Below are positions 10,247-12,541 of a stretch of 64,000 nucleotides of DNA, piece after piece (positions within the stretch are counted from its first letter, which is position 1; the number at the start of each line of letters is the position of its first letter). The position numbers were made by a program, and so were the translations under genes. The notes below the pieces were generated by a model that ran no database searches, was not told the origin of the DNA, and saw only the letters and a program-made list of their open reading frames with translations. Source of the stretch: Comamonadaceae bacterium (GTDB lineage: Bacteria; Pseudomonadota; Gammaproteobacteria; Burkholderiales; Burkholderiaceae_C); the NCBI GenBank assembly GCA_021299875.1, contig JAJTEW010000002.1, positions 361,449 to 425,448 on the forward strand, read 5' to 3'.

Positions 10247-10399
10247 ATGTCTAACTCAGACAAAGTCTGGCCAACGGGACTGACCCAGGCCGAATCGGAA
10301 GAGATTCACCGCAATCTCATCCAGGGTACGCAGATTTTCGGCATGATTGCCGCATTTGCTCACCTGTTGGCTTATATCTATTCACCCTGGCTCAAGTAA
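10247..10399 (+). CDS. pucB: LH2 antenna beta polypeptide PucB
   Basis: This 50-aa peripheral antenna beta chain has the pattern TGLTQAESEEIHRNLIQGTQ, one membrane helix with the bacteriochlorophyll His in AFAHLLAYIYSPWL, and a short C-terminus. The ORF track lists a longer 81-aa version, but the ATG at 10247 is preceded by CAAGGAGAAAACT and starts exactly where LH2 beta chains start. It lies 104 bp after crtC, with no PpsR-type box seen in that gap. Confidence 0.97.
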   Translation: MSNSDKVWPTGLTQAESEEIHRNLIQGTQIFGMIAAFAHLLAYIYSPWLK

Positions 10400-10411
10400 A
10401 GGGGACACCTC

Positions 10412-10603
10412 ATGATCTATTCGAAAATGTGGTTGGTGGTGAAACCTTCGGTTGGTATTCCAGTGTTCATTGCTGCTGTGGCGATCGCGTCCTTCAGCGT
10501 GCACTTGGCACTGACCTTGAACACCACCTGGGTGAAGGGCTTCCTCAATGGTGGCGCCAAAGTCGTTGCAACCGCTCCGGCGGATGCGGCGGTCAAGAAG
10601 TAA
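10412..10603 (+). CDS. pucA: LH2 antenna alpha polypeptide PucA with Phe44-Leu45
   Basis: This 63-aa LH2 alpha chain aligns without gaps to my recollection of the acidophila-type alpha: KMWLVVKPSVGIPVF, the ligand His31 in SFSVHLAL, TTW at 38-40, then VKGFLNGG. Positions 44-45, which are Tyr-Trp in B800-850 complexes and hydrogen-bond the B850 acetyl groups, are Phe-Leu here, the substitution known from B800-820 complexes. The C-terminal tail (AKVVATAPADAAVKK) is Ala/Lys rich. It starts 12 bp after pucB. Confidence 0.97.
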   Translation: MIYSKMWLVVKPSVGIPVFIAAVAIASFSVHLALTLNTTWVKGFLNGGAKVVATAPADAAVKK

Positions 10604-10654: not shown

Positions 10655-12037
10655 ATGAACAAAACCAACGCATCGTGGACGCAATCGCTGGCCAATTTGG
10701 GGCCACGTTTTTTGCCTTTTGCCGACGCCGCCAGTGAAGATTTGCCACTGTCGCGTTTGCTGCGCCTGTCTTTGTTTCAAATTTCTGTGGGCATGGCGAT
10801 GGTCATGCTCGTGGGCACTCTCAACCGCGTGATGATTGTGGAGCTCAAAGTCTCCGCCACGCTGGTGTCCTTCATGGTGGCGCTGCCCCTGCTCATTGCG
10901 CCGCTGCGTGCCCTCATTGGTTTTCGCTCTGACAACCACCGCTCGCAACTGGGCTGGCGTCGGGTGCCCTACATTTGGATGGGCAGCTTGCTGCAGTTTG
11001 GTGGTTTTTCCATCATGCCTTTTGCGCTGCTGGTCTTGGCCGGTGCTGGACAGTCCAGTCAGGCGCCGGCATGGGTGGGTCAAGTGGGAGCGGCAGGAGC
11101 CTTCCTGTTGGTGGGCCTGGGCATGCACACGGTACAAACCGCAGGTCTGGCTTTGGCCACCGACTTGGCGCCCCCAGAGCGTCAACCCCAAGTGGTGGGC
11201 CTGATGTATGTGATGCAGTTGGTCGGCATGATCGGCAGCGCTTTGGTCTTGGGCTATTTGCTGCACGACTACAGCCCCGGCCAACTCATTCGGGTGGTGC
11301 AAGCCGTGGCCGTGACCACACTGGTTTTGAATGTGGTCGCGCTTTGGAAGCAAGAACCGCGCAGCCGCATGCGCAAACCTGGCACGCCCATCGAATACAC
11401 CTTTCAACAATCGTGGCAACTGTTTTGCAAAGACCAGCACACCGTTAGGCGGTTGTTGGCGGTGGGCTTGGGGACCATGGCATTCACGATGGAAGACGTG
11501 CTGCTCGAACCCTATGGTGGCGAGATTTTGCACATGAGCGTGTCCAGCACCACGTTGCTTTCGGCCACACTGGCCCTGGGCGGTTTGCTCGGTTTTGCTT
11601 GGGCCTCTCGCGTGCTGGGGCGGGGGGCTGACGCGTACCGAATGTCCGGATGGGGCGCCTGGATCGGCTTGCCGGCCTTTGTGGCGGTGATGGCTTCGGC
11701 TCCGCTGGCATCGCCAACGGTGTTTGTGTTGGGCATCTTTTTGATCGGCCTGGGCGGCGGTTTGTTTGCCCACGGCACCTTGACGGCCAGCATGCAGTTG
11801 GCCCCACCCAGTCAGGTCGGCTTGGCCATGGGCGCTTGGGGCGCGGTGCAAGCCACGGCTGCGGGTCTGGGCATGGCGTTGGGTGGAATTTTGCGGGACT
11901 CCGTCGCCATGGTCTCCACCCCAGTCATGGGCTACTCGGCGGTTTATTTGATCGAAATCTTGCTGCTCGCTCTGACCTTGTGGGCGATGGGACCTTTGAT
12001 CAACGCTGCGGTGCGGCCCAACACCAACTCTGCATAA
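10655..12037 (+). CDS. pucC: PucC-family LH assembly transporter-like protein
   Basis: This 460-aa major-facilitator-type membrane protein of the BCH2/PucC/LhaA family has about 12 hydrophobic segments. Family hallmarks are PFADAASEDLPLSRLLRLSLFQ at the N-terminus, GTLNRVMIVEL, IGFRSDNHRS and DVLLEPYGGEIL. Members deliver bacteriochlorophyll or assist assembly of antenna complexes. Position directly after pucBA points to LH2. The ATG has no good ribosome site, so low or coupled translation is possible. It is one of three paralogues in the window (also 31.7 and 45.7 kb). Confidence 0.92.
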   Translation: MNKTNASWTQSLANLGPRFLPFADAASEDLPLSRLLRLSLFQISVGMAMVMLVGTLNRVMIVELKVSATLVSFMVALPLLIAPLRALIGFRSDNHRSQLGWRRVPYIWMGSLLQFGGFSIMPFALLVLAGAGQSSQAPAWVGQVGAAGAFLLVGLGMHTVQTAGLALATDLAPPERQPQVVGLMYVMQLVGMIGSALVLGYLLHDYSPGQLIRVVQAVAVTTLVLNVVALWKQEPRSRMRKPGTPIEYTFQQSWQLFCKDQHTVRRLLAVGLGTMAFTMEDVLLEPYGGEILHMSVSSTTLLSATLALGGLLGFAWASRVLGRGADAYRMSGWGAWIGLPAFVAVMASAPLASPTVFVLGIFLIGLGGGLFAHGTLTASMQLAPPSQVGLAMGAWGAVQATAAGLGMALGGILRDSVAMVSTPVMGYSAVYLIEILLLALTLWAMGPLINAAVRPNTNSA

Positions 12038-12086
12038 TCACCCACTTCACAACCCTTCACCTCGACCCACCACCCTAGGACTCACC

Positions 12087-12173
12087 ATGGAAATCAAACA
12101 CATTCTCATCATCATGTTCGCGGTTTTCTGCCTGTTCATGTTGGCCAATTGGTTCAACCGCCCACGCAAGTGA
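12087..12173 (+). CDS. 28-aa membrane microprotein downstream of pucC
   Basis: This ORF of 28 codons has an AGGA six bases before the ATG, 49 bp after pucC and 28 bp before a strong terminator, so it would be the last gene of the puc transcript. The peptide is a single hydrophobic helix (HILIIMFAVFCLFMLANWF) with a basic tail (NRPRK). I know no family for it. Small extra helices have been reported in some LH2 complexes (gamma chains), and this could be an analogue. That role is inference; the ORF itself is supported by its ribosome site and context. Confidence 0.6.
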   Translation: MEIKHILIIMFAVFCLFMLANWFNRPRK

Positions 12174-12201: not shown

Positions 12202-12230
12202 AAAAAAAGCCACCGCGAGGTGGCTTTTTT
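12202..12230 (+). terminator. Rho-independent terminator, probably bidirectional
   Basis: AAAAAAAGCCACC, loop GCGA, GGTGGCTTTTTT: a perfect GC stem flanked by A- and T-runs. It ends the puf-crt-puc transcript and, read on the other strand, the converging RRM gene. Confidence 0.92.
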
Positions 12231-12247: not shown

Positions 12248-12541
12248 TCAGTTGCGGGTGTCGCGGTAACCGCTGCCGTAACCCGTGGTGGGTTCTTTGG
12301 GCTTGGAGATGTTCACCACGATGGAGCGACCGCTGACCGACATGCCGTTCAGGCCCGTGATGGCGGCTTGGGCTTCTTCGGCGCTGGACATTTCCACAAA
12401 GGCAAAACCCTTGGAGCGGCCGGTGTCGCGGTCCATCATGACTTTGGCCGACAGAACGCCGCCAAATTCAGAAAAGTTTTGACGCAGGCTGGCGTCGTCG
12501 ATGGTGTAGGGCAAGTTGCCCACGTAAATTTTGCTGCTCAT
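12248..12541 (-). CDS. RRM-type RNA-binding protein
   Basis: This 97-aa single RNA-recognition-motif protein has RNP2 as KIYVGNLPY (residues 4-12) and RNP1 as KGFAFVEM (about 44-51), followed by a short Gly/Tyr tail (TTGYGSGYRDTRN). It resembles the small cold-inducible RNA-binding proteins common in betaproteobacteria and cyanobacteria, which bind mRNA and act as chaperones or stabilisers. An AAGG lies about eight bases before the ATG. It converges on the puc terminator and is not part of the photosynthesis operons. Confidence 0.93.
   Translation of the reverse strand: MSSKIYVGNLPYTIDDASLRQNFSEFGGVLSAKVMMDRDTGRSKGFAFVEMSSAEEAQAAITGLNGMSVSGRSIVVNISKPKEPTTGYGSGYRDTRN

Follow-up and report, generated by a model that had tools for sequence, protein, structure and literature searches.

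A 28-codon membrane microgene downstream of pucC is a candidate overlooked part of the LH2 antenna in Limnohabitans and related Burkholderiales

The peripheral light-harvesting complex LH2 is a textbook antenna, usually described as consisting of α and β subunits only. The puc locus in the window (the whole 64,000-nt stretch of Comamonadaceae DNA analysed here) raises the question of whether a very short open reading frame behind pucC encodes a further antenna component, a protein that serves the assembly factor PucC, or no protein at all. The features on which the question turns are as follows.

10247..10399, + strand: pucB, LH2 β subunit (Pfam LHC match)
10412..10603, + strand: pucA, LH2 α subunit (Pfam LHC match)
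10655..12037, + strand: pucC, LH2-type PUCC/MFS assembly factor (Pfam PUCC, E = 4e-149), directly upstream of the microgene
12077..12080, + strand: Shine-Dalgarno sequence AGGA, with a 6-nt spacer to the microgene ATG
12087..12173, + strand: 28-codon microgene, predicted single-pass membrane product MEIKHILIIMFAVFCLFMLANWFNRPRK, ATG start and TGA stop
12203..12230, + strand: rho-independent terminator hairpin with A/T-paired flanks, arms AAAAAAGCCACC-GCGA-GGTGGCTTTTTT
12248..12541, − strand: convergent RNA-binding (RRM) protein gene, outside the puc operon and marking its downstream end

From its ATG at 12087 to the TGA that ends at 12173, the microgene specifies 28 amino acids; it starts 49 nt after the end of pucC and ends about 30 nt before the hairpin, whose stretch has a folding energy of −26.4 kcal/mol (z = −2.8). 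A compact frame with a correctly spaced AGGA, followed at once by a strong terminator, had been noticed in a preliminary description of this DNA, and both elements are present. A simple terminator scanner missed the hairpin, probably because its A/T tails are base-paired as part of the stem. The structure is symmetrical, is apparently bidirectional and also points towards the convergent RRM gene. Neither a promoter nor a terminator was found in the interval between pucC and the microgene, which is the last open reading frame after pucB, pucA and pucC and before the terminator. We infer that the microgene is co-transcribed with pucB, pucA and pucC as the final cistron of one operon and so ends the puc transcript, as had been proposed. 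The pucB product scores above the cutoff of NCBIfam NF040862 (LH1 β subunit), yet its gene heads a pucBAC operon, and this label on an LH2 PucB is likely an annotation trap.

Comparison with relatives bears on whether the frame is translated. Among 90 genomes of the window's genus, taken as Limnohabitans from its named relatives, homologs were found in 38, with one more cut by a contig end (G034); a 39th match in the search (E = 0.4) falls within a frame of 412 codons and is attributed to chance. Across the 35 distinct sequences of the genus, the columns that vary number 17, 5 and 21 of 25 at first, second and third codon positions, pS is 0.40 and pN 0.085 (pN/pS 0.21), and dN/dS is about 0.16; values of dN/dS in other clades range from 0.02 to 0.45. 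In more distant pairs the frame is 93–95% identical while the leader and downstream flanks are 21–55% identical. The start is kept in all homologs, a purine-rich Shine-Dalgarno sequence precedes nearly all of them, and a hairpin lies downstream of many. These sequence comparisons show the microgene to be a genuine gene kept by purifying selection. The opposite reading, that it is a chance or untranslated frame in the pucC 3′ UTR or part of a 3′ UTR regulatory RNA, is effectively refuted by the codon-position pattern, by the dN/dS value, and by a frame and Shine-Dalgarno sequence that are kept across genera. The preliminary description had made its idea depend on a reading frame conserved behind pucC in relatives, judged by synonymous versus nonsynonymous change, and on a translation signal; the frame is conserved, the gene looks translated, and neither of the outcomes that would have refuted the idea was observed. 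In one genome of the genus (G036, locus L039) the 3′ half of the microgene recurs elsewhere (C3:523019-523078) as a partial second copy; the DNA behind this copy is similar to that downstream of the complete gene, which looks like the duplication of a fragment.

The product was described beforehand as a single hydrophobic helix with a basic tail, and AlphaFold2 gave one helix for a 31-residue homolog (residues 3–23, pLDDT 87). Limnohabitans sp. Rim28 (L075) encodes an identical peptide. The product, of roughly 3.4 kDa, is predicted to form one transmembrane helix, at about residues 3–23, and a short basic C-terminal tail, which varies among homologs and by the positive-inside rule is probably cytoplasmic. 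No family in Pfam, NCBIfam or PHROGs rose above noise, and no PDB chain was matched by microgene-family profiles, in a search whose sensitivity is limited for helices this short; a plasmid search for annotated neighbours returned one irrelevant record. Membership of the LHC α/β family (PF00556) can be set aside, as the product has no Pfam LHC match and no conserved His. No face of the helix is significantly conserved (p = 0.12–0.25), and together with the absence of a conserved His this leaves no sign of a classical bacteriochlorophyll ligand, which counts against a role in LH2 itself.

The microgene is distributed with LH2 genes. A PUCC family search distinguishes LH2-type pucC, scoring 487–507 bits for complete genes, from paralogs of the lhaA type and others, and in the genus each assembled LH2-type pucC is immediately followed by the microgene. 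The two genes share a contig in 37 genomes, including G083 with its truncated pucC; in G047 the microgene is present and pucC lies off the contig, and in the sole apparent exception, G034, the contig stops after ATGGAAATCAAACACATCCTCATCA, the first 8 codons of the microgene. In about 29 phototrophic members of the genus, whose genomes have lhaA-type PUCC genes and no detected LH2 pucC, the microgene was not found, and genomes of the genus without PUCC genes also lack it. Throughout the genus, an independent collection and the other genera of the family, it occurs only with LH2 genes. The reading that we prefer, with a probability of roughly 45%, is that the product serves the LH2 peripheral antenna of Burkholderiales as an accessory transmembrane helix. 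Such a helix would pack on the α/β ring or between rings and would stabilise the LH2 ring, in sub-stoichiometric or stoichiometric amounts; by analogy, its role may be comparable to that of LH1-γ for LH1. Strict co-occurrence with LH2 operons, a single helix and a variable basic tail would also suit a peptide of the LH2 regulon that organises membranes or has a regulatory role and acts outside LH2 and PucC, on how LH2 packs against RC-LH1, on membrane curvature, on quinone traffic or on proteolysis; the microgene has no link to RC-LH1 genes, and we regard this alternative as improbable.

The distribution was extended to 59 loci by scanning 84,980 species genomes for the pattern F[MIF][LV]ANW[LF]N; divergent members are invisible to such a scan, and the invariance of ANWxN in the resulting set is partly forced by the pattern. 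All 59 loci carry Burkholderiales or betaproteobacterial titles or belong to evidently mis-titled bins, and they include bins of Limnohabitans, Ramlibacter, Hydrogenophaga and Hylemonella; pucC lies 17–145 nt upstream of the microgene in 58, the remaining locus starting at a contig end. Two different pucBAC-microgene loci occur together in each of two metagenome bins (L113/L117 and L116/L125), where either one genome has two LH2 operons or the bins are mixed. When other genera of the family were searched by position, 15 of 21 LH2-type pucC loci proved to have directly downstream a single-helix frame of 26–43 amino acids with a Shine-Dalgarno sequence (for example MKVHHIILLIWFIVLVFWAVNQVAESNRRADMERERLPDA and MTITQILFVLWFVVVGIWILNQFNKK); such a short hydrophobic frame is expected by chance in about 0.3% of shuffled-DNA trials. 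In genus g91 the start of the microgene overlaps the stop of pucC (ATGA). The divergent frames align without gaps over the helix, with one two-residue gap at the N-terminus; an hhalign comparison of the genus profile with one of them, from g103, gave a probability of 2%, which is not significant. Common descent is likely, and rests on position, alignment and intermediate sequences.

Within the family the microgene is lacking in g60, in g12 and in three of the four g94 genomes; in g12 and these three g94 genomes pucBA is convergent with pucC, and no displaced copy turned up in a profile search of the microgene-less genomes. The loci concerned in g94 (L150, L152 and L156) and g12 (L158) represent a second LH2 arrangement with a different α/β type, and in the three from g94 another gene follows pucC. 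No microgene was found at the alphaproteobacterial and other pucC loci checked outside the family, where LH2 pucC loci run into other genes. In the pucBACDE operon of Rhodobacter capsulatus, the genes for PucD and PucE lie after pucC on the same transcript and support LH2, PucE being described as an LH2-associated chain. PucD and PucE resemble the microgene in their place after pucC, but they are larger, and the products of Rhodobacteraceae-like loci look soluble and lack the single-helix pattern. By our reading of the translations, the gene after pucC in Rhodobacteraceae-like loci is peptide-deformylase-like or encodes a soluble-looking protein. At five of them (L172, L173, L174, L178 and L183) the gene behind pucC encodes a conserved protein that starts MTxxITRxYDxAxxA and possibly occupies the pucD/E position.

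These absences bear on the main rival, which we place on the unlikely side: that the helix binds the MFS-type PucC, aids bacteriochlorophyll delivery or LH2 assembly, and leaves the finished complex. Other small proteins modulate membrane transporters, and the microgene always stands directly behind pucC, not beside pucBA, which counts against an LH2 helix; this position and the stop/start overlap in g91 would couple its expression to that of PucC and not to the abundant α/β chains, so that expression near the PucC level is expected under this rival. However, many LH2-type PucC proteins work without the microgene (at six loci in the family and all those checked outside it), the lhaA paralogs of the genus are not seen with it, and its presence follows the α/β type slightly better than PucC phylogeny. 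On the α/β tree presence requires one change, with weak support (77), against two on the PucC tree, where the microgene-less g60 is nested among bearers. Of the g94 genomes, the one whose PucB resembles that of the window (88%) carries the microgene and the three with a 59% PucB do not, although the PucC proteins of those three are closer to that of the window than is the PucC of the microgene-bearing genome. An SF-x-VH motif in the α subunit is found at 30 of 30 microgene-bearing loci compared and at 0 of 6 microgene-less loci of the family; Rhodobacteraceae-like loci have the same motif and lack the microgene, which speaks against the LH2 helix. The g94 pattern and the tree contrast together mildly favour a link of the microgene to the LH2 proteins over one to PucC.

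Small accessory chains of other antennas offer precedents for an LH2 helix. Single-helix γ chains have been described for LH1 of Blc. viridis, Rpi. globiformis and Hlr. halochloris (PMC10214105, PMC9788563, PMC12817894), with 16 copies packed between β chains in Blc. viridis and 11 copies in Rpi. globiformis (PMC10214105, PMC9788563); LH1 of Hlr. halochloris also contains a γ (PMC12817894). The LH1-γ of Blastochloris viridis (36 amino acids) and the γ-like chains of Rhodopila globiformis and Halorhodospira halochloris are, like the microgene product, very short single-helix antenna polypeptides, but they belong to LH1 whereas the microgene goes with the LH2 operon, and its sequence does not match the solved γ chains. 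Unlike the microgene, the Blastochloris γ genes occur in several copies outside the photosynthesis cluster (PMC9788563). The preliminary description had cited small γ helices from LH2 structures, an inexact precedent: an extra LH2 chain does exist in Rps. palustris, but it is no helix, and the single-helix γ chains described in the papers cited here are those of LH1. The Rps. palustris LH2-γ, reported only in Rhodopseudomonas, is an extended non-helical ribbon of about 10 kDa with six Ser-containing repeats and six bacteriochlorophylls (PMC9618040). It is like the proposed helix in being an extra LH2 polypeptide that long went unnoticed; the microgene product, with 28 amino acids, no Ser and one helix, is not of its type. 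PufX, protein W and PufY/PufZ are likewise small single-helix accessory antenna chains, but they belong to RC-LH1, are encoded by different genes and show no sequence match. An LH2-γ reading of the microgene is plausible.

The α subunit indicates which kind of LH2 the microgene accompanies. The window's PucA (10412–10603) has Phe44-Leu45 at the positions of Tyr-Trp/Tyr in B850 complexes, the B800-820 signature known from Rbl. acidophilus, and 1ijd is among the solved relatives of this PucA; its sequence predicts a B800-820-like antenna. This pair is consistent with the blue-shifted 799 and 813 nm bands of Limnohabitans planktonicus, which absorbs at 799, 813 and 865 nm (PMC12654162). Whether the antenna of that species forms separate rings or a Gemmatimonas-like concentric ring is listed as open in a 2025 review (PMC12654162). 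The microgene as a general determinant of the blue shift was rejected, as α types with F44-L45 and with Y44-Y45 both carry it.

The microgene is thus a good candidate for an LH2 antenna part that has been overlooked, with no known family or structure among those searched. More tentatively still, it may be the founder of a new family, made up of single-helix subunits that are intrinsic to a single LH2 lineage of betaproteobacteria; its product would be the first helical γ chain of an LH2 and would possibly help to shape the unusual 799/813 nm Limnohabitans antenna. If the preferred reading is true, a component of LH2 has been overlooked in an abundant group of freshwater phototrophs, its cistron being below the size accepted by common gene callers, and the microgene provides a named peptide to seek in the Limnohabitans antenna.
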